DNA of 64,000 bases from Desulfocarbo indianensis. Lineage in GTDB: Bacteria > Desulfobacterota > Desulfarculia > Desulfarculales > Desulfarculaceae. The translations under genes were made by a program, and so were the position numbers. Positions 27,431-64,000 of the stretch are shown here, in pieces. The notes beneath the pieces were generated by a model, which searched no databases, was not told the origin of the DNA, and saw nothing but the letters and a program-made list of their open reading frames with translations. The stretch covers positions 576,726-640,725 of the forward strand of contig LBMP01000002.1 of the NCBI GenBank assembly GCA_001184205.1, written 5' to 3'. Numbering within the stretch: the first letter of the stretch is position 1; each line of letters begins with the position of its first letter.

Positions 27431-29083
27431 TCAGTATGGTTTGTCGTTGATCAGGGCGTCGCCCACGTAAAGCAGATATTCAAAGGGCAGCCGGCCTTCG
27501 CCTTGCTGCTCCAACACCTGGCCCAGGGTCGAGCGCACGACCCTTTCCTGGTCGGCGTAGCCGGCCTTGATGACCATGCCCACGGGCGTGTCGGGCGGGT
27601 AGTGCTTGCGCAAGGCGTCGATGAACTTCTTGAAGTCGGTGCGCATGGTGAACAGGACCATGGTGGCCTTTTGCCGGGCCATCTTCTCCACCGACCAGCC
27701 CGAGGCCAGCAGCACCGAATGAGAGGTCTTGCCCCCGGTGACGCCCACCCCCAGGGCCGCGTTGGCCGCGTTGAAGCAGCTCATGCCCGGCACCACCTCG
27801 GTGTCGATGTCCTTCAGTTCGGTCAGGCTCCAGTTGCAGGGTCCGAACACCATGGGGTCGCCGCTGTCCAGTTGGGCCACGATCTTGCCCTGGGCGACGG
27901 CCTTGCGCACCATGGCCGCGAATTCGGCCTGTTTCTGGTGATATTGCTCGCAGCTCATGCGCTCGCGGCGTCCGGGCCGTTGGTTGTTTTGCTCGGTTTT
28001 CTTGGGGCATTCGCTGCCATAAAAGGGGAACAGGCGGTGGTAGCCCTCGATGACCTCCTTGCCCTCCAACTCCTTGCCGAACAGATTCTTGAGGCGCTGG
28101 TGGACGAAGATGATGTCCGCCTTTTTAATGACCTCCCGGGCCCGCAGGGTGGCCAGGTCCGGATCGCCGGGCCCCACGCCCACCAGGTAGTATTTGCCCT
28201 TTGCTTGGCTTTTCTTCTCGGCCCGGTATTGGGAGGTGGCCAGGGCCTTGCCCACGTACACAATGGTATTGAAGCTTTTATTGCCGGTCAGCTTCTGCTT
28301 TATGTCGCCCATGGTTCCCAAAACCACTTTTTGCTTTTCGGGAAAGCCAGCCTCGATCACCGCGCCCACCGGGGTGTCGGCCGGGTACACCTTGGCCAGC
28401 CGGTCAAATACCTTGTCCGTGTCGCGGGGCATGAAGATGACCAGGGTGGCTTCCTTATGCTGGGCCAGGCTCTCCAGGGAATCCACCGCGCCCTTTTTGT
28501 CGAAGGGCGCGGTGATTATCACCTCGCCCAGGCGGGCTTGAAGGGCCGCGTTGGCCGCGTTAAAGGCGCTCAGGCCGGGAACCACCTTGGGCTTCAGCTC
28601 CTTCAGGGCCAAGACGGTCCATATGCCGGGGCTGTAAATGGTGGGGTCGCCGCTGGTGGTCATGACCACTTTCTTGCCGTCGGCCACCGCCTTTTTCACC
28701 ATGCTGACGAATTCGGCCTGCTTTTGATGGTATTCCTCGCAGGTCTTGCCGCGGCGCAGCTGTTTCTTTTCCTCGCCCTTGGGGCAGGCCTTACCATAGA
28801 AGGCGAATATGTGGTTATAACCGTCGATCACCTGCTTTTTTTCGAAATCCATCGCCGCGGAGAGCATCTTTTGGACGTTGGGCCTGCAGAATACGATGTC
28901 GGCCTCCTCGATGGCCTTCAATTGGCGCGGCGTCATAAGGTCCATCCCCGCCGGCCCCAGGCCAACCAGTTGGTAACTTCCTCCCGGGGCGGCCGCTTGC
29001 GCCGGGATCATGGTCCCCAAGGCCGCCAGGCAGGCCAGGGCCACAACGGCCAGTAACGATTTCATGCGCAACTTCGGCTTCAT
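27431..29083 (-). CDS. Exported protein with two tandem tetrapyrrole-methylase domains
   Basis: A 550-residue protein. Residues 1-31 form a Sec signal peptide (basic start, hydrophobic core, cleavage after PAQA). Two homologous tetrapyrrole (corrin/porphyrin) methylase domains follow. Domain 1 has YQLVGLGPAGMDLMTPRQL, TSGDPTIYSPG and VPGLSAFNAANAAL. Domain 2 has YYLVGVGPGDPDLATLRAR, LDSGDPMVFGPCNW and VPGMSCFNAANAALG. These are the glycine-rich SAM/tetrapyrrole motifs of the CbiL/CbiF fold. Each domain also has an extra segment, FYGxxCP...C(E)xYHQKQAEF, with two cysteines. GGAGG lies 8 bases before the ATG. It follows the TonB receptor gene by 76 bases under the same B12 riboswitch. SAM is cytoplasmic, so an exported enzyme is odd; a periplasmic corrinoid or porphyrin binding role is an inference. 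Confidence 0.88.
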   Translation of the reverse strand: MKPKLRMKSLLAVVALACLAALGTMIPAQAAAPGGSYQLVGLGPAGMDLMTPRQLKAIEEADIVFCRPNVQKMLSAAMDFEKKQVIDGYNHIFAFYGKACPKGEEKKQLRRGKTCEEYHQKQAEFVSMVKKAVADGKKVVMTTSGDPTIYSPGIWTVLALKELKPKVVPGLSAFNAANAALQARLGEVIITAPFDKKGAVDSLESLAQHKEATLVIFMPRDTDKVFDRLAKVYPADTPVGAVIEAGFPEKQKVVLGTMGDIKQKLTGNKSFNTIVYVGKALATSQYRAEKKSQAKGKYYLVGVGPGDPDLATLRAREVIKKADIIFVHQRLKNLFGKELEGKEVIEGYHRLFPFYGSECPKKTEQNNQRPGRRERMSCEQYHQKQAEFAAMVRKAVAQGKIVAQLDSGDPMVFGPCNWSLTELKDIDTEVVPGMSCFNAANAALGVGVTGGKTSHSVLLASGWSVEKMARQKATMVLFTMRTDFKKFIDALRKHYPPDTPVGMVIKAGYADQERVVRSTLGQVLEQQGEGRLPFEYLLYVGDALINDKPY

Positions 29084-29159: not shown

Positions 29160-31304
29160 CTAAAGGCTGAAAGAAAGGGATACGCCGAAGGTGCGATCCG
29201 TGGCGGGGTAACCCCGGCTGTCCTCATATTCGGTGTCAAACAAATTGTTGACGAAAAAGCGCAAGGAGGCGTCTTTGGCAAAGCCCCATTTTTCGAACAA
29301 CTTCTGCTGAAGGCCTATGTCAACCAAGCTGTGGGCGTCAATGGACACGCGTCTGACAATCCATTCATCCTCGGCGATTTCCTCGGAGTATTCGTTGACC
29401 TGCTTATCCTGGTACTGGTAGTCCACCAGCAGGCGGGTGCCGTCGATGATCTCGTAGCGCAGCCCGGCCTTGACCCGGTGCTTCGCCTGGTCCGACGCCG
29501 CGTCGACGCCGGCCATCTCGTCGCCCTGGTTATCCATCTTCAGATAGGCGTAGCCCAGGTAGAACGAGATCCTGTCTGTAATGTTGCCGCTAAGCTCCAC
29601 GTCCACGCCCTGGCTGATCATCTGATCCAGGTTGATCATGTAATCTTTGTATTCCATACCGGGGGCCACCGGGTTTGTCTTGCTGGGCGTGTATTTGGCA
29701 TAGGAGCTGTTGTAGGCCATGTAGTCGTCGATGATGTAGTAGTAGTAGTTGAGCTTCATCCGGACATTGCCCAGCAGTCTGCGCTGCAGGATGGCGTCCA
29801 TGCCCACGCCTTGTTCCGGGTCCAGATAGGCGCCGGTGGGGCGGCCCTGGGGGTTGTAGTTGCCGTGGTAATCCGGCGCGTGCCAAATGCGGCTGATGCC
29901 CACGCTGATGGAGGTGTCGCGCAGCCAGGCGGCCAGATCATCCATCTCATAGGTCAAGAAGCTCTTGGGCATCAGGCCGCTCCAGTCGCGCTCGATCCAG
30001 GGGCCCTCGGTGGTGATGTATCTGTTGCTGACCCAGATATTGACGTGCTCGTAACGCAGGCCCAGGGTCAGTTTCAGGCGGGGGAGGATGGTCCACTCGT
30101 GCTGGAGGCCCGCGCCCAAGATACGGAAACGCTTGTCCTTGTTGTCGCGGTCCTCGCCGCCGTCCCAGGCCTGCTGGCCGTCCAGCTCAAAGAAGGTTAC
30201 GTTGTTGCCATTCCAGGTGTATTTATCCTGCAGTTTGGCCCCGGCCTGGTACCAACGGGTGAATAAGTGGGCATAACTGCCATCGCTTATGTATTTGCGG
30301 TCCTTGTATTCTTCGCCGTAATAGGCCTCCAGGGAGACCTCGCCAATGGCCCAGGGCTGCAAATAATCCAGGCTCAGCCGCCTGCTGTCGCCGTCCCAGG
30401 ACGGGTCCTGGTCGATGGTGCGCGGGCGCGATACGCCGGGCATAACGGGATAGTCGGGGTCGTAGTCGGGCCTGCTGGGGTCGTTGACCACCGCGTCCCT
30501 GCGCTCGTTGCTGGTGTAGGATGCGGTCATGGCGAGGTGACCGCCCGAGGGAATCACATAGCCCACGCGGCCCACGCCCGTCTGAACCTCGGCCTCGGTG
30601 TTGCGCAGATAGCCGTCGGTTTTGTAGAACTGGTAGCCCGCGTCATAGGTGAACTGGCCGGCGCTGCCCCTAAGGGACAGGTTATAGTTCTGGGTATTGT
30701 AGGACCTGTAGGAACCCGAGAACTTCACCTTGGGCACGGCGCTGTCTTGCAGCTTGGGGGGCTGGCTGACCATGTTGACCACGCCGCCGATGCTCTTGGC
30801 CGGATACAGGGCCCAGTGCGGACCGGGCAATATCTCGATGCTTTTCACCAAAAAAGGCGGCAGAGTGGCAAAGTCCACGATGTTGGAGTGGTTGCGGCCG
30901 CCGGTCTTGCGCAGGTCCAATCCGTTGATGGCCATGGTGAAGCGGTTCATGGCAAACGAGCGCATGTTGAAGCTGTCCGAACCGGGCACCAGATTAGTGG
31001 TGTCGCGGTAGTCGAACATGATTATGTTTTGTAGATAGTCGCCTATGTTTTGTGGAAGGTCGATGGTCTCAAACTGGTCTAGGTTGATCACTTCCTTGGT
31101 CGGCGTCAGGTCCACCTGGGCGCCGATTTCCTGCGGGGCTTTTGGAGCGGTGACCAATACTGGTTGGATTTTGCTCGCTTTTTCCTTTGGTTGGGCGGCG
31201 GTTGCTTCTCCCTGGGCCCAACCGGGAGCCGCTAGCAACAACAGTGGCAAGATACAAACCAACAGGGCCGTGATCCGTTGCAAACGCTTTACATTACAAT
31301 TCAT
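29160..31304 (-). CDS. TonB-dependent outer-membrane receptor, B12-riboswitch controlled
   Basis: A 714-residue receptor. It has a signal peptide (hydrophobic LLVCILPLLLLAAP, cleavage after GWAQ), a TonB-box-like IQPVLVTA, and a plug domain with LPQNIGDYLQNIIMFDYR and VKSIEILPGPHWALYPAKS. A long beta-barrel ends in the aromatic terminus TFGVSLSFSL. The ATG at 31304 has AAGAAGGGG just upstream; the frame upstream only covers leader sequence. A cobalamin riboswitch and a terminator hairpin lie in the leader, so cobalamin, a corrinoid or a cobalt chelate is the likely cargo. Confidence 0.92.
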   Translation of the reverse strand: MNCNVKRLQRITALLVCILPLLLLAAPGWAQGEATAAQPKEKASKIQPVLVTAPKAPQEIGAQVDLTPTKEVINLDQFETIDLPQNIGDYLQNIIMFDYRDTTNLVPGSDSFNMRSFAMNRFTMAINGLDLRKTGGRNHSNIVDFATLPPFLVKSIEILPGPHWALYPAKSIGGVVNMVSQPPKLQDSAVPKVKFSGSYRSYNTQNYNLSLRGSAGQFTYDAGYQFYKTDGYLRNTEAEVQTGVGRVGYVIPSGGHLAMTASYTSNERRDAVVNDPSRPDYDPDYPVMPGVSRPRTIDQDPSWDGDSRRLSLDYLQPWAIGEVSLEAYYGEEYKDRKYISDGSYAHLFTRWYQAGAKLQDKYTWNGNNVTFFELDGQQAWDGGEDRDNKDKRFRILGAGLQHEWTILPRLKLTLGLRYEHVNIWVSNRYITTEGPWIERDWSGLMPKSFLTYEMDDLAAWLRDTSISVGISRIWHAPDYHGNYNPQGRPTGAYLDPEQGVGMDAILQRRLLGNVRMKLNYYYYIIDDYMAYNSSYAKYTPSKTNPVAPGMEYKDYMINLDQMISQGVDVELSGNITDRISFYLGYAYLKMDNQGDEMAGVDAASDQAKHRVKAGLRYEIIDGTRLLVDYQYQDKQVNEYSEEIAEDEWIVRRVSIDAHSLVDIGLQQKLFEKWGFAKDASLRFFVNNLFDTEYEDSRGYPATDRTFGVSLSFSL

Positions 31305-31343
31305 TTCCCCTTCTTCCCCTAATTTATTGGTTAACAGCTTCTC

Positions 31344-31411
31344 CAAAAAGCAAAACGACCATGTGAGGCCAATCCATAGAAAATGGATAAGGACCTTCAC
31401 ATGGTCGTTTT
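31344..31411 (-). terminator. Riboswitch-linked terminator hairpin in the TonB receptor leader
   Basis: A perfect 15-base inverted repeat (arms 31397-31411 and 31352-31366, ACGACCATGTGA core) encloses a second stem ATCCAT/ATGGAT. On the minus strand it is followed by TTTTGCTTTTT. It lies after the cobalamin riboswitch and before the start codon, as expected for transcription attenuation. Confidence 0.8.
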
Positions 31412-31462
31412 TACTATTTAGGCATGCCAGAGCACCGTACCTCGCGGGTAACTCATGGGCTA

Positions 31463-31632
31463 CCAACAAGGCAGGTCTCCTGGCTCTTGGGTATGACCTA
31501 CCGGCCGCGTCTTCCCATGCCCCCGGAAGGGCACAGTGGCTTACTTGCGGCTTTCGTTCCCAAATACAGTGGCGGGACCGCTGCGGCTTCTTACCGCATT
31601 CCCTCTAGGACCGTCTCCGGCCACCTTGTCGG
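31463..31632 (-). promoter_or_regulatory. Cobalamin riboswitch upstream of the TonB receptor
   Basis: The minus-strand RNA has the B12 box AGCCAGGAGACCTGCC (31485-31470), GCGGTCCCGCCACTG, GGGAACGAAAGCCGC and AAGCCACTG in the canonical order. Outer strands ACAAGG and CCTTGT close helix P1. It should shut off the TonB receptor and tetrapyrrole-methylase genes when adenosylcobalamin is abundant. Confidence 0.93.
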
Positions 31633-31653
31633 CATCACTGTAATGTCCTAAGG

Positions 31654-58426: not shown

Positions 58427-59055
58427 CACCATTCCACCCTTATACGCATCGACTCGTGCGCCGGCCTGTTGGGCTCTTTATTTGTGATTTGAGATGAGCT
58501 ATGGCAAGCTCCAGACGCAACGGGCCATCGCTGAGTCGGCAATAAACGTATCGCAAATTAACTATCCGCCCGCCTTATCTGGCATGTGGAAACTTGCAGG
58601 CGATTCTATTAAAAAAATATAATTATCACCGTATCAGCCAAAAAGTTAAAGCAAATGTAAACAAGTATGAACAAAAAAGTGTTTTAAGATTCCAGAGGGT
58701 CGAAGTCCTTATTGCTTACAGGTAATCTGTGCAATCTGTTTGGGAGCCGAGTCCTTTTTGCGCATACGTCCACGGCCGAGTTGACGCCCGCTTGACAAGC
58801 TAATCCACGGCGGCCTCGCCGGCTGTGAAATCGCCGCGACGCAGATATGGCGAGCTATCTCAGTGGCGGGTCATGCGAGGTGGAGCCGGGCCGTATCAGA
58901 CGCCATTCAATCATAAACCTCTCGGCCAGTGACAGTCATTCCGAAAGTTTCACCTTTTCGCGTCTATATGCCTGGAGCGGCTCGCGCCCAGATTGGCATA
59001 TGACTTGCCGCTTGACTTCAACCGCGTTTATTGCCAAACAACCAAGCGAAGATAA
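58427..59055. other. Intergenic region of about 630 bases between the kinase and the B12 locus
   Basis: It is AT-rich at 58610-58680, probably holding the kinase promoter on the minus strand, and GC-rich toward the first riboswitch. I see no gene, repeat or tRNA. Confidence 0.5.
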
Positions 59056-59203
59056 CGGGCGAACAGGGAATCCCGTGAAAATCGGGAGCGGGCCCGCCGC
59101 TGTAAACGGGAACCAGGGCCGCGCATGCCACTGGCCGTGAGGCAGGGAAGGGGCGGCCCAAGGGTTGATCCGTAAGCCAGAATAGTTGCCGCCGGTTCGC
59201 CAT
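59056..59203 (+). promoter_or_regulatory. Cobalamin riboswitch 1 (divergent B12 box)
   Basis: Order of conserved elements: GGCGAAC (P1, pairs with GTTCGCC at 59195-59201), AGGGAATCCCGTGAAAATCG, GCCCGCCGCTGTAA, GGGAAC and GCCACTGGCC. The B12 box is AAGCCAGAATAGTTGCC instead of AGCCAGAAGACCTGCC. The aptamer is therefore recognisable, but its box is altered and it may bind less well or other corrinoids. Confidence 0.85.
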
Positions 59204-59269
59204 AGCTCAAGGCCGCTCCGTGGAAAGAGGGGCCGCGGCAAAAGTCAAGGCTGATGAACAGGGACGCCG

Positions 59270-59297
59270 CCGGACTCGTTTTTGAGTACGGTTTTTT
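59270..59297 (+). terminator. Terminator after riboswitch 1
   Basis: CCGGACTC / GAGTACGG forms a stem (one G-A mismatch), loop GTTTTT, then TTTTTTATT. It sits 66 bases after the aptamer and overlaps the first codons of the chlI-like fragment. Confidence 0.7.
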
Positions 59298-59671
59298 ATT
59301 GCCGGGCCCTGGCCGCGATATTGCCCCAGATAGAGGCGCTGCGGGGATCGGCCTTCATGCTGTCGCCCGAGGAAGTCGACTCCGGCCTTAGGGATCATTG
59401 CCTGGGTAATAAGCCGGTGGCATGCGATCTGCGCCGGGTAGCGGTGATGGAGCTGCCGGTGAGCGACACCGAGGACCGGATGGTGGGTTACCTGGATATG
59501 GAGCAGGTCCTGACCAAAGGCGAGAAACATTACGAGCCGGGTTTGCTGGCCAGGGCCCACCGGGGCTTTCTTTACGCGGACGAAGTCAACCTCTGGGATG
59601 ACCACGTGATGGATCTGCTTCTGGATTTGGCGGCCATGAGCCAGGGCGCCGCCTGGTTAGATTGCAATTGA
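59282..59671 (+). pseudogene. ChlI/BchI-type chelatase ATPase fragment
   Basis: The reading frame gives 129 residues matching the middle of magnesium/cobalt chelatase AAA subunits. RALAAILPQIEALRG comes straight after where Walker A should be, ELPVSDTEDRMVGYLDME follows, and Walker B is GFLYADEVNLWDDHVMDLLL. The P-loop and the C-terminal half are missing; the frame begins with a TTG inside the riboswitch terminator. Without Walker A it cannot bind ATP normally. A relic fused to riboswitch 1 is the simplest reading; a short functional regulator is less likely. Confidence 0.75.
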
Positions 59672-59696
59672 CAACGCCCCGCGTTGTTGATATGGC
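59668..59696 (+). promoter_or_regulatory. Promoter for riboswitch 2/cbiK
   Basis: TTGACA at 59668-59673, 17 bases, then TATGGC at 59691-59696. The -35 is perfect; the -10 is weak. It overlaps the end of the chlI-like fragment and sits just before riboswitch 2, so this unit can be transcribed by itself. Confidence 0.55.
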
Positions 59697-59710
59697 TTCA
59701 TAACGACATA

Positions 59711-59885
59711 ATCGGGAGCGGGCGCCTCGCAGAGGCCCTGAGGGAAGCCGGTGCGAATCCGGCGTGGTCCCGCCGCTGTAACCGGGGACGAAAGCCGCCA
59801 ATAAGCCACTGCCGACTAATGAAGACGGTGGGAAGGCGGCGGCCGTAGGATGATCCGGAAGCCAGAAGACCTGCCCGCCCCTGCA
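59711..59885 (+). promoter_or_regulatory. Cobalamin riboswitch 2
   Basis: Contains AGGGAAGCCGGTGCGAATCC, GGTCCCGCCGCTGTAACCGG, GGACGAAAGCCGCCAATAAG, the GCCACTG element and a canonical B12 box AAGCCAGAAGACCTGCC at 59858-59874. It precedes an intrinsic terminator and the cbiA-like fragment/cbiK unit. Confidence 0.93.
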
Positions 59886-59946
59886 AGCCGCCCGCGCCGG
59901 GTTATGCGCATCGCGGCTGGCCAGGGATCAAGTAAGCTGGGTGCAG

Positions 59947-59981
59947 TCCCTCGGTTATCAAGAACCGGGGGATATTTTTTT
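59947..59981 (+). terminator. Terminator after riboswitch 2
   Basis: CCCTCGGTT / AACCGGGGG stem (one T-G wobble) with a 6-base loop, then ATATTTTTTT. It lies 62 bases after the aptamer and fits B12-dependent attenuation of cbiK. Confidence 0.8.
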
Positions 59982-60171
59982 GGGCAAACGCAGCAAAGCA
60001 ACCTGCATCGCACCCGCGGGCAACCGAACCGGCAAGACCATCCTGCCCCTGTCCCTGCGGACCGCGTCGCGGCGGCTCGCCCCGATGGCGCGGCCCTTCC
60101 AGCGCAGGCCCGGCTGCGCAAACTACTGTCAATATGCTTCAGGCCGGCGGCTTTCGGAGGGCTGTTCATGA
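59980..60171 (+). pseudogene. Decayed cbiA-like N-terminal fragment
   Basis: From a TTG in the terminator's T tract, 63 codons read ATCIAPAGNRTGKTILPLSL, then RPFQRRPG...YASGRR. Length and positions match the start of cobyrinate a,c-diamide synthase (IA......GKT..L.L...PFK.GPDYID...AGR). The conserved KGPDYID is lost and the rest of the gene is absent. Its stop TGA overlaps the cbiK ATG by ATGA, so if translated it would couple to cbiK. The alignment is by eye and the similarity is moderate. Confidence 0.45.
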
Positions 60172-61064
60172 AAAAGACAGCCATACTACTGGCCGCCTTT
60201 GGGGTCAGCCTGCCCGAGGCCTTGGGCGGCATCGACAACGTGGTGCGGCGGGTGCGGGAGGCCTTCCCCTGTCCGGTGGCGGTCTGTTTCACCTCCAATA
60301 TCGTCCGCCGTATCTGGCGTGAACGTCTGGCTGACGGGCAGTGGCTGCAGAGCAATCCCCACACGCCGGATTATTTGCGGCGGCTGAGGGGGATATTGGG
60401 CGCCATCGCCGATTTGCAGGAAAACGGATACAAGACCCTCATAGTGCAGCCCCTGCACATCTACGCGGGGGAGGAATACCACGACTTAAGCGGCTACGTG
60501 TCGGCCTTGGCGGGCATCCGGACCATCAAGTCCAAATGGCGGCCGTTCGAAAAAATCGTATTGAGCCGGCCGGCCTTGGGCGCTCCCGGCGTGGAGCATC
60601 CCTATCTGGACGACATCCAGCGGGCTGCGGAGGCCTTGGAAGATGACGTGCGGCTGGCCCGCCAAAAAGACGCGGCCCTGGTTTACGTGGGCCACGGCAA
60701 TCACGTGTTCTCCACCGGCGTGTATCAGGAAATGCAGCAGATGCTGGGCAAACGCCACCCGGATATGATCGTCGAGATCGGCGCGGTGGAGGGCTTGTTC
60801 GACGCCGCCTATGTGGCCCAGCGCCTGCGCGCGCGCGGCGCCAAGCGGGTTCTCTTGAAGCCCTTTATGGTGGTGGCCGGCGTGCACGCCAGGGATGACA
60901 TGGCGGGGGACGACGCCGATTCCTGGCGTTCGATCCTGAGCAAAGCCGGCTTTACGGTGGAATGCCGGTTGGAAGGCCTGGGCGAGAGCGACGCCTGGGC
61001 CGGTATTTACCTGAGCAACATAATGGAGTGCGCCGCCCGGGCGGGCATAGCACTGCCAGCATAA
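60168..61064 (+). CDS. cbiK: Sirohydrochlorin cobaltochelatase (CbiK type)
   Basis: A 298-residue class II chelatase that inserts Co2+ into sirohydrochlorin at the start of anaerobic B12 synthesis. Metal-binding histidines are visible in QPLHIYAGEEYHDL near residue 98, YVGHGNHVFS and VAGVHARDDMAGDDADSW. There is no signal peptide, so it is the cytoplasmic form; some sulfate reducers also have an exported CbiK. GGAGG lies 8 bases before the ATG. Expression should be cut by B12 through riboswitch 2. Confidence 0.9.
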   Translation: MKKTAILLAAFGVSLPEALGGIDNVVRRVREAFPCPVAVCFTSNIVRRIWRERLADGQWLQSNPHTPDYLRRLRGILGAIADLQENGYKTLIVQPLHIYAGEEYHDLSGYVSALAGIRTIKSKWRPFEKIVLSRPALGAPGVEHPYLDDIQRAAEALEDDVRLARQKDAALVYVGHGNHVFSTGVYQEMQQMLGKRHPDMIVEIGAVEGLFDAAYVAQRLRARGAKRVLLKPFMVVAGVHARDDMAGDDADSWRSILSKAGFTVECRLEGLGESDAWAGIYLSNIMECAARAGIALPA

Positions 61065-61090
61065 GCGAGGTGAGAGAGAGCGACTAAAAA

Positions 61091-61250
61091 ACGGCAGGCG
61101 CCATAAGCGCTTGATTGGGAATCCCGTGCAAATCGGGAGCGGGCCCGCCGCTGTGACCGGGGACGAAAGCCGTTAGCAAACCACTGGCCCCTGGGGCTGG
61201 GAAGGAACGGCCGGTAGGGAGAGCCGGAAGCCAGAAGACCAACCTGCCAA
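61091..61250 (+). promoter_or_regulatory. Cobalamin riboswitch 3 (B12 box with insertion)
   Basis: P1 strands GGCAGG (61093-61098) and CCTGCC (61243-61248) enclose TGGGAATCCCGTGCAAATCG, GGCCCGCCGCTGTGACCGG, GGACGAAAGCCG, the ACCACTGG element and AAGCCAGAAGACCAACCTGCC, a B12 box with four extra bases. It precedes a strong terminator and the ABC/TonB genes. Confidence 0.88.
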
Positions 61251-61321
61251 AAATTCGCTGGCGCATCCCGAGGAACGGAAGCGCGCCGGTAACGAGTTCT
61301 GAGCGTGTAACGCGGGAGATG

Positions 61322-61358
61322 CCCGGACTCTTATAACGGAGTCCGGGTTTTGCTTTTT
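61322..61358 (+). terminator. Terminator after riboswitch 3
   Basis: Perfect 9-base stem CCCGGACTC / GAGTCCGGG, an 8-base loop, then TTTTGCTTTTT. It ends 12 bases before the ABC ATPase start. Its stem sequence CCGGACTC also appears in the terminator of riboswitch 1. Confidence 0.88.
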
Positions 61359-61370
61359 GAGGTTCGTTAT

Positions 61371-62219
61371 ATGAATTCGGCAGTGATTGAGACCCGCGAC
61401 CTTACCAAGGTTTACGGCAAAACCAAGGCCCTGAACGGCCTGGACCTGGTCGTGGAGCGGGGCGAGATATTCGGTTTTCTGGGACCCAACGGGGCGGGCA
61501 AAACCACCACCTGCCGGGTGCTGACGACCCTAACCAAACCAACCTCCGGTTCGGCCGCGGTATCCGGCTTCGATGTGGTCAAGCAGGCGGTGCAGGCCAA
61601 GAGCGGCATGGGCGTGGTCGCCCAGCATACCAACGTGGACGGCGAGCTGAGCGTGTACGCCAATCTGAAACTGCACGGCATGCTGCACAAGATGCCGCCC
61701 TGGCTGCGCGAAACGCGGATAAGCGAGCTTCTGGAATTCGTGGGCTTGGCCCAGCGCCGCAACGATCCGGCCCGCCAGCTTTCCGGCGGCCTCAAACGCC
61801 GCTTGATGATCGCCCGCGCCCTTTTGCATAATCCCTCGGTTTTGTTTCTAGATGAACCCACCGTGGGGCTCGACGCCCAGACCCGCCGCCGCATCTGGGA
61901 CCTTATCCGGCGCAGCCATCAGGCCGGGGTCACCATCATGCTCACCACCCACTACATCGAAGAGGCCGAGGCCTTGTGCCACCGGGTGGGCATCATCGAT
62001 AGCGGCAAACTGATCGCTTTGGACAGCCCGGCCAATCTGCTGGCCAGCAGCGGCACCCACGTGGTGGAGGAGGTGGGCGGCCAGGGACGGAGCTGGTTTT
62101 TCGAAAGCCGCGAAAAAGCCTCCCGGCGCGCGGCGGAGATGGAGGACACGGTGATGATCCGCCGGGCCAATCTGGAGGACGTGTTCATCCGCCTGACCGG
62201 AAGGAAGGTGCGGCCATGA
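61371..62219 (+). CDS. ABC-2 type transporter ATP-binding protein
   Basis: A 282-residue ABC ATPase. Walker A GPNGAGKTTTCRVL near residue 42, the Q-loop VVAQHTNVDGELSV, signature LSGGLKRRLMIARAL, Walker B VLFLDEPTVGLDAQ and H-loop TTHYIEEAE are intact. It resembles the NodI/DrrA exporter group, not BtuD. ATGA overlap links it to the permease. Control by riboswitch 3 ties it to cobalamin status. Confidence 0.93.
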   Translation: MNSAVIETRDLTKVYGKTKALNGLDLVVERGEIFGFLGPNGAGKTTTCRVLTTLTKPTSGSAAVSGFDVVKQAVQAKSGMGVVAQHTNVDGELSVYANLKLHGMLHKMPPWLRETRISELLEFVGLAQRRNDPARQLSGGLKRRLMIARALLHNPSVLFLDEPTVGLDAQTRRRIWDLIRRSHQAGVTIMLTTHYIEEAEALCHRVGIIDSGKLIALDSPANLLASSGTHVVEEVGGQGRSWFFESREKASRRAAEMEDTVMIRRANLEDVFIRLTGRKVRP

Positions 62220-62950
62220 GCGGCGTTTGGGCGGTCTTCTACCGCGAGCTGCTAATCCTGCGCAGCCGCCTGGGGCGCCAGATGGCCAACTACGCCATAA
62301 GCCCCTTGCTCTATATCATTGCCTTCGGCTGGGGCATGGGCCGGGGCGTGACCATGGAAGGCGTTGACTATCTGGCCTACATGTTGCCGGGCCTGCTGGC
62401 GCTTTCCTCCATGAGCCGTTCTTTCAGCATATCTTCCGAGATCAACATAGCCCGTTTCTATTGGCATACCTTCGAGGAGTTCCAGACCGCTCCCCTGTCT
62501 CCGGCGGCCATTGTCCTGGGCGAGGTGCTGGGCGGGGTGGTGCGCGGGTTCTTGGCGGCGGCGGTGGTGGCCGCGCTGGCTCTCGTCAGCGGGGTCGGTT
62601 TGCATTTCGGAGCGGGCCTGTTCGCGGGGGTGTTCCTGAACTGTTTTTTGTTCGCCTCGGCCGCCGTTCTGGCGGCGATGATGGTGCGCACCCACGCCGA
62701 TCAATCCAATCTCACCGGCTTCATCATTACGCCCATGACGTTTTTATGCGGCACCTTCTTCAGCCTGGACAAGCTGCCGGGCTGGGCCTCCGCGGCCATC
62801 GAAACGCTGCCGCTCACCCACGCCAGCCATTTTATCAGGGCCTCTGCCCTGGGTCAGCCGACGCCATGGCTTTCCCTCGTCGTGCTGGCTTCCTATGGCT
62901 GCGTGTTCTTTCTTATGGCCGTGTGGCAGGTGCGCAAGGCCAGCATCTAG
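62216..62950 (+). CDS. ABC-2 type transporter permease
   Basis: A 244-residue permease with about six membrane helices and the ABC-2 signature around TGFIITPMTFLCGTFFSLDK near residue 166. An N-terminal RSRLGRQMANYAISPLLYI matches NodJ/DrrB-like permeases. It overlaps the ATPase gene by ATGA and is followed after 14 bases by a TonB receptor gene. Export-type architecture under a B12 riboswitch is unusual. Confidence 0.9.
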   Translation: MSGVWAVFYRELLILRSRLGRQMANYAISPLLYIIAFGWGMGRGVTMEGVDYLAYMLPGLLALSSMSRSFSISSEINIARFYWHTFEEFQTAPLSPAAIVLGEVLGGVVRGFLAAAVVAALALVSGVGLHFGAGLFAGVFLNCFLFASAAVLAAMMVRTHADQSNLTGFIITPMTFLCGTFFSLDKLPGWASAAIETLPLTHASHFIRASALGQPTPWLSLVVLASYGCVFFLMAVWQVRKASI

Positions 62951-62964
62951 GGAGCGGAGGTACC

Positions 62965-64000
62965 GTGAAACGATTGGGTTGGGCCATATGCGCTTTGGGG
63001 TTGGTTTTGGCGTTGGGTTCGCCTGCACTGGCCGCTGATGCGTCCAACGGCGAAACCGTACTGCTGGATGACAAGGAAATCGGCGAACTCAAGGTGCGCA
63101 CCGTGCAGGAACTGCTGAACCTGATTCCCGGCGTGAAGGCCAGCGACTCATCGGTGAGCATACGGGGCAATACTTCGGTCGCCGTGTTTCTCGACGGCAT
63201 GAGTCTGATCAACACCGCCAGCGCCCACAGAAGCGTCAAGTGGAGCCTGGTTTCCCTGGAGGACATCGCCTCGCTGAAGATAATAAAGGGCGGCGGCGCC
63301 GTGGCCTTCGGCGACAACTCCAGCGGCGGGGTGATCATCATAAAGTCGAAAAACGTGGACCGTACCAGGGCCAGCCTGGATTTCGAGGCGGGCAATCAGA
63401 ACTATTGGCGCACCCGCGCCAACGCCAGCCGCAAGGACGGCCCCTGGGGAACCGCCTTCAACGGCGAATTTTTATCCTCGGACGGTTATCGCATAAACGG
63501 CGACGAGGAGGAGGGCCGGGCCGGCTTCAAGCTTAGCTATGCGCCGGAAAGCCGGTTCCTGTGGGCCGGAGCCGATTCAGTGGCTCCCACCCTGGCCGTG
63601 GACTATGGGGAGACGCGCAAGGGCAGCGCCGGGCTTCCCAAGTACCCCACGCCCAACGCCAGGTCCCGCGACGAGGCCCTGGGCGTTTCCTTGAATTTGA
63701 CAGCGCTGGGCTGGAAAAACGCGACGTCGTTCATCCGTTTTCAAAACGACTACAACAATCCCGACTCGGATACCTACACCAAGCTGCGCAGTTGGACCCT
63801 CAAGGAAGACCTGCGTAAAAGTTTCAAGCTTCCTTTATTGGGCGCGATCAATTCGGGCCTATTGTTCGCGCACACTGAAGCCCAAGGCAACAACGTCCTG
63901 CCGGTGGATGAACAGAGCTTTGGCATCTTCGCCCAGAAAATCTACAAGATGAAGTTGTTGCCCCTGACTCTGAATCTGGGTTTGCGGGCCAACGTCTATT
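62965..64000 (+). CDS. TonB-dependent receptor (runs off the window)
   Basis: A GTG at 62965, after GGAGCGGAGG, starts a frame open to the window end (about 345 residues seen). Signal peptide: KRLGWAICALGLVLALG with cleavage after ALAA. The plug domain has VQELLNLIPGVKASDSSVSI, IRGNTSVAVFLDGM and GGGAVAFGDNSSGGVIIIKS, followed by barrel strands. The TonB box is not obvious. It lies in the riboswitch 3 operon, so corrinoid or cobalt-complex uptake is likely. The C-terminus is outside the window. Confidence 0.88.
   Translation, partial: MKRLGWAICALGLVLALGSPALAADASNGETVLLDDKEIGELKVRTVQELLNLIPGVKASDSSVSIRGNTSVAVFLDGMSLINTASAHRSVKWSLVSLEDIASLKIIKGGGAVAFGDNSSGGVIIIKSKNVDRTRASLDFEAGNQNYWRTRANASRKDGPWGTAFNGEFLSSDGYRINGDEEEGRAGFKLSYAPESRFLWAGADSVAPTLAVDYGETRKGSAGLPKYPTPNARSRDEALGVSLNLTALGWKNATSFIRFQNDYNNPDSDTYTKLRSWTLKEDLRKSFKLPLLGAINSGLLFAHTEAQGNNVLPVDEQSFGIFAQKIYKMKLLPLTLNLGLRANVY

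Follow-up and report, generated by a model that had tools for sequence, protein, structure and literature searches.

How three cobalamin riboswitches, each followed by its own terminator, came to lie so close together was the question raised by this locus in a 64,000-nt stretch of the Desulfocarbo indianensis genome (the window; the genome, G000, is a draft of 333 contigs). Riboswitches of the cobalamin class are off-switches, with transcription terminating once a corrinoid is bound. We consider it very likely that the three switches are the surviving leaders of neighbouring B12-repressed units, A, B and C, and that deletion within A and B drew them together. Unit A would have comprised the chelatase subunits chlID-chlI, unit B the anaerobic corrin-ring operon cbiA...cbiH-cbiK and unit C an exporter/TonB/CobN/Btu transport operon, with most of units A and B having been deleted from the window's genome. 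The riboswitches would thus lie no more than 2.3 kb apart because the genes between them were lost, rather than because a sensor array was assembled. The classes of the elements, their homologies and order, the deletion scars and the terminators were read directly from the sequence.

A covariance-model scan of the window with the Rfam cobalamin model RF00174 (gathering score of 31.5 bits) located riboswitch 1 (type A) at 59050-59205 (71.7 bits, E 1e-15, match at 59068-59184), riboswitch 2 (type B) at 59703-59892 (105.0 bits, E 3e-25) and riboswitch 3 (type C) at 61079-61261 (93.9 bits, E 5e-22), all on the + strand. All three scores exceed the cut-off, including those of riboswitches 1 and 3, for which sub-threshold values had been named as grounds for refutation, and the three serial aptamers reported in a first-pass annotation are real. 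Judged from sequence, all three are ordinary members of RF00174, resembling this B12-element in aptamer sequence and structure, in their terminator platforms and in the B12 genes downstream. Riboswitches 2 and 3 match the model over its full length; riboswitch 1 matches only at model positions 48-166, and its P1/P2 part misfits the model. The P2 hairpin of riboswitch 1 is absent and P1 is poorly paired in the canonical register, with a shifted 7-bp stem (GGCGAAC/GTTCGCC) being possible as P1. Riboswitch 1 and its two relatives differ from the family in this lack of P2, and riboswitch 1 also in heading a broken gene. A chance match was ruled out for riboswitch 1 by its score and E value and by the existence of relatives that share its leader and terminator. 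Decay was dropped as the cause of the missing P2 because the P2 region is reduced in both relatives, one of which has intact genes. Box 1 of riboswitch 1, which had been described as altered, reads GCCAGAATA and recurs in both closest relatives. The four extra bases noted in box 3 of riboswitch 3 are a genuine feature of its spacing but no peculiar insertion, as the same spacing is found in both orthologues and the pair column adjoining the box covaries (UGG/CCA, CGG/CCG and AGG/CCU in an alignment inspected by eye).

The absence of P2 from the type-A aptamers could indicate different tuning of the three switches, whether to the kind of corrinoid or to the B12 level, as other cobalamin riboswitches changed in corrinoid selectivity when P2-L2 was swapped (PMC9600662). 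In the same study, however, selectivity was set by no single element and each of the 38 switches tested responded to more than one corrinoid, and we regard differential tuning as unlikely.

Intrinsic terminators had been annotated behind each aptamer, and a hairpin with a T-run is present in all three positions (+ strand), the first in a weakened form. Terminator 1 (59269-59300; hairpin 59269-59292) has a CCGGACTC stem with one G.A mismatch and was missed by a strict hairpin scan, being detected once one mismatch was allowed. Terminator 2 (59946-59982) is formed by a GTCCCTCGGTT/AACCGGGGGAT hairpin at 59946-59973 and is of the same type as in the B leaders of genomes G018 and G019, while terminator 3 (61321-61355) is formed by a GCCCGGACTC/GAGTCCGGGT hairpin at 61321-61348. 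Hairpin energies are -10.0, -17.4 and -20.2 kcal/mol for terminators 1, 2 and 3, respectively, and the first of these compares with -16.8 and -13.4 kcal/mol in the two relatives of riboswitch 1. As predicted from their class, binding of a corrinoid would close each aptamer and allow its terminator to form, such that expression would be off when B12 is plentiful.

The CCGGACTC stem is common to terminators 1 and 3, as had been annotated, and duplication of a regulatory cassette had been offered as one explanation of the cluster. A tree was built from 95 aptamers of the family. Riboswitch 1 forms a clade in it with the A element of G019 and with a paralogue from the window's own genome, on contig C290 (support 100), and riboswitch 3 forms one with the C elements of G019 and G003 (support 74). 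Riboswitch 2 falls together with the B elements of G018 and G019; the B leader of G003 is nearby and that of G002 is placed elsewhere. (A regular expression for the aptamer core caught 62 of the 95 known aptamers and was left out of counts in the wider collection.) As each aptamer groups by position across genera, the three were distinct before these genera split. Descent of the three cassettes from one another within the lineage is therefore highly improbable and was rejected: riboswitches 1 and 3 share their terminator stem and a near-identical P3-P4 stretch, and the tree joins their clades as sisters with 41% support, but every aptamer resembles those at the same position in other genera more closely than it does the other two in the window, and riboswitch 2 lies on a different branch with a terminator of a different type. 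The sister clades and the shared stem do make an old common origin of A and C possible, with riboswitches 1 and 3 perhaps being ancient paralogues. The idea of a duplicated cassette thus survives in a distant sense only, with similarity beyond the family core present between riboswitches 1 and 3 in the terminator stem and none with riboswitch 2. The other suggestion of the first-pass annotation, separate units, holds by origin, as each riboswitch heads, or once headed, its own B12-related unit.

The family of the window's genome includes Dethiosulfatarculus sandiegensis and a Desulfarculaceae bin, and evidence for the ancestral arrangement comes from gene order in relatives. G019 (Desulfarculaceae) carries the three riboswitches in the same order as the window, in the arrangement A, broken chelatase gene, B, cbiA-C-L-D-ET-F-G-H-K, C, abcA, abcM, tonB receptor, cobN and Btu genes, where the cbi gene names were read by eye from the sequences. 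Riboswitch B of this genome heads a nine-gene cbi operon ending in cbiK, and C lies behind cbiK. In G003, B is followed by cbi genes, cbiK, C and the same transport genes as in G019, and in G018 by cbi genes and cbiK.

The leader of riboswitch 2 aligns to the B leaders of G019, G018 and G003 through the aptamer, the terminator and cbiA as far as codon ~45-55, past which homology is lost until it resumes at cbiK. The cbiA remnant (59980-60171, +) is a TTG-started frame of 63 codons, about 45 of them alignable to CbiA, and its stop overlaps the start of cbiK in what constitutes a deletion scar. This remnant scored 83 against G019 cbiA at the DNA level (shuffles: mean 29, maximum 42) and 81 against the G018 CbiA protein (shuffles: maximum 46). 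Between the remnant and cbiK, some 7.5 kb of cbi genes have been lost. Shortening by deletion has left remnants of the deleted genes, namely the 5' remnant of cbiA and a middle fragment of chlI. The reverse order of events, in which the cbi genes were inserted later in other genera, is disfavoured by the presence of the cbiA remnant in the window. The surviving cbiK (60168-61064, +; sirohydrochlorin cobaltochelatase, PF06180, E 6e-63) has 70% identity to its G019 orthologue, and no obvious signal peptide was found in its product; riboswitch 2 would control this gene via the short cbiA remnant. The sole cbiD of the genome is in a separate cbi/Btu operon on contig C1, which is headed by its own riboswitch. 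This operon also carries cbiA, other cbi genes, Btu genes and a second CbiK, which looks exported, its N-terminus being signal-like (L018:5468-6505, -).

The chelatase fragment behind riboswitch 1 (59303-59671, +) is a 129-codon frame whose match to cobalt/magnesium-chelatase ATPase subunits of the chlI/bchI type is confined to their middle (positions 42-153 of 641 in TIGR02442 and 42-157 of 337 in TIGR02030), with 50-53% identity to intact ChlI proteins. Homology begins at RALAAILP, just past the Walker A segment and directly 3' of terminator 1, and the C-terminal part is absent, such that both ends are missing. Riboswitch 1 is thus an orphan, preceding a mere middle piece of a chlI-type gene. 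An intact chlID-chlI pair is found on contig C290 behind the sister riboswitch, whose aptamer core has 88% identity to that of riboswitch 1. In G019, the gene behind riboswitch A starts like a 668-residue ChlID and ends like a 372-residue ChlI, and contains an internal deletion and an in-frame stop. As they are broken differently in the window and in G019, the chelatase genes decayed independently in two lineages. The simplest ancestor would be a riboswitch A heading chlID-chlI, later eroded twice. We infer this intact ancestral unit from the C290 paralogue and the two different remnants; the type-A locus was found in two genomes only, which counts against the favoured explanation, as does the draft state of the genome assembly.

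Present activity of riboswitch 1 is putative; its -10 hexamer is poor and its terminator weakened. Unique changes in its core number 4, versus 5 in the intact-gene paralogue and 10 in the remaining core compared, and hence show no excess. This conserved core, without relaxed constraint, is a poor fit with a long-dead element. Alternatively, riboswitch 1 may have been kept by selection without its gene and might act under B12 control, either as an attenuator that lets transcription into riboswitch 2 or blocks it, or as a short RNA. The basis for this proposal is that the core is conserved like that of the intact-gene paralogue while the gene behind it is broken in two genera; we hold it to be quite improbable.

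Riboswitch 3 starts 14 nt past the cbiK stop, and type C lies 14-42 nt behind cbiK across the genera compared. No conserved promoter was recognised before type C in leaders of three genera, and riboswitch 3 probably acts inside an operon. The genes of its unit are an ABC-2 exporter ATPase (61371-62219, +; PF00005, 83% identical in G019), an ABC-2 permease (62216-62950, +; PF01061) and a TonB-dependent receptor (62965-64000, +; PF07715) that continues past the end of the window, where it is followed by CobN, BtuF-like, BtuC-like and BtuD-like genes (locus L017). Most likely, a single transcript passes two gates, riboswitch 2 ahead of cbiK and then riboswitch 3 ahead of the transport genes, which would subject the transport genes to a second round of control on an RNA already gated by riboswitch 2.

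This arrangement leads to a broader proposal, that transcription from riboswitch 1 (and 2) crosses all three elements as a functional serial gate in which some transcripts are lost at every terminator, giving the transport genes a multiplicative, steep B12 response. Such a gate would be consistent with the tight gaps (about 30 nt from the end of the chlI remnant to riboswitch 2 and 14 nt from cbiK to riboswitch 3), with the lack of a conserved promoter before C and with the conserved core of riboswitch 1. However, riboswitch 2 has its own conserved promoter-like site (59668-59696, +; TTGACA, 17 nt, TATGGC). Six leaders were compared, those of four riboswitch-B counterparts, of G002 C77 and of the window's riboswitch 2; TTGACA occurs in every one, and four of them combine a spacing of 17 with a TAT-type second hexamer. 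Riboswitch 1 itself has a poor -10 hexamer and a weak terminator. The evidence thus favours the step from 2 to 3 and not the passage from 1 to 2 to 3, and a gate spanning all three is doubtful. A tandem riboswitch, with one leader, a shared target and no gene between aptamers, was rejected, as the chelatase remnant separates riboswitches 1 and 2 and cbiK separates 2 and 3.

Clusters of cobalamin switches and loss of riboswitch-led corrinoid operons are already on record (PMC9481103, PMC4285132, PMC545781); what this locus appears to add, under the favoured explanation of deletion, is a traceable formation of a cluster through loss of the genes between leaders. In Desulfobacca acetoxidans, seven riboswitches occur in 7 kb, three of them for AdoCbl (PMC9481103). 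This deltaproteobacterium resembles the window in having several cobalamin riboswitches with their own terminators within a few kb, but each is there coupled to a c-di-GMP/c-AMP-GMP switch to form a logic gate, whereas those of the window are all cobalamin riboswitches that gene loss would have gathered. Dehalobacter has five cobalamin-riboswitch corrinoid operons, and strain E1 has lost operon-2 through a deletion starting in the first gene (PMC4285132). Here too a riboswitch-led corrinoid operon was lost with a break within the first gene, but the Dehalobacter operon went as a whole block, while the window has kept the riboswitch, the beginning of cbiA and the operon's final gene, cbiK. In D. 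psychrophila, a B12-element lies inside a B12 cluster before cbiK-cbiL, and delta-proteobacterial elements share with the window a position within a B12 gene cluster and the targets cbiK and btu; the genomes of that study held one to four elements each, compared with a total of 16 in the window's genome (PMC545781). Our literature search found no cobalamin riboswitches described in Desulfarculus.

The locus would be a clear case of a dense riboswitch array arising by loss rather than design, in which leaders outlive the genes they controlled and the operon-terminal cbiK has come under a leader formerly 8 kb upstream. This urges caution, as clustered riboswitches do not amount to a logic device until relatives have been checked. 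An orphan aptamer with comparable relatives also offers a handle on how long a riboswitch survives its gene.

Cobalamin riboswitches are unusually many in these genomes (16 in G000 and 17 in G002), several of them before TonB receptors. One of those in G000 (C312:106809-107000) precedes a ThiC/BzaF-like gene (L021:6005-7423, +; assigned by eye), possibly for lower-ligand synthesis. True tandem cobalamin riboswitches occur in a sister genus (L073-L079, in G004, G008, G014, G017, G012, G010 and G018), where a full aptamer with a terminator is followed ~150 nt later by a divergent second aptamer that lacks a terminator and ends beside the start of an apparent TonB receptor gene. Finally, the scan detected a fourth cobalamin riboswitch in the window (31453-31643, -; 103.8 bits), which was absent from the first-pass annotation. 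It is followed by a TonB receptor (29160-31469, -) and then by a gene (27431-29083, -) for a 550-aa protein that combines a signal-like N-terminus with two tetrapyrrole-methylase domains; a single-domain, signal-bearing version lies beside another TonB receptor (L025:8508-9383, -). It is odd to find exported corrin-methylase folds next to corrinoid receptors, and these proteins are perhaps periplasmic corrinoid binders.
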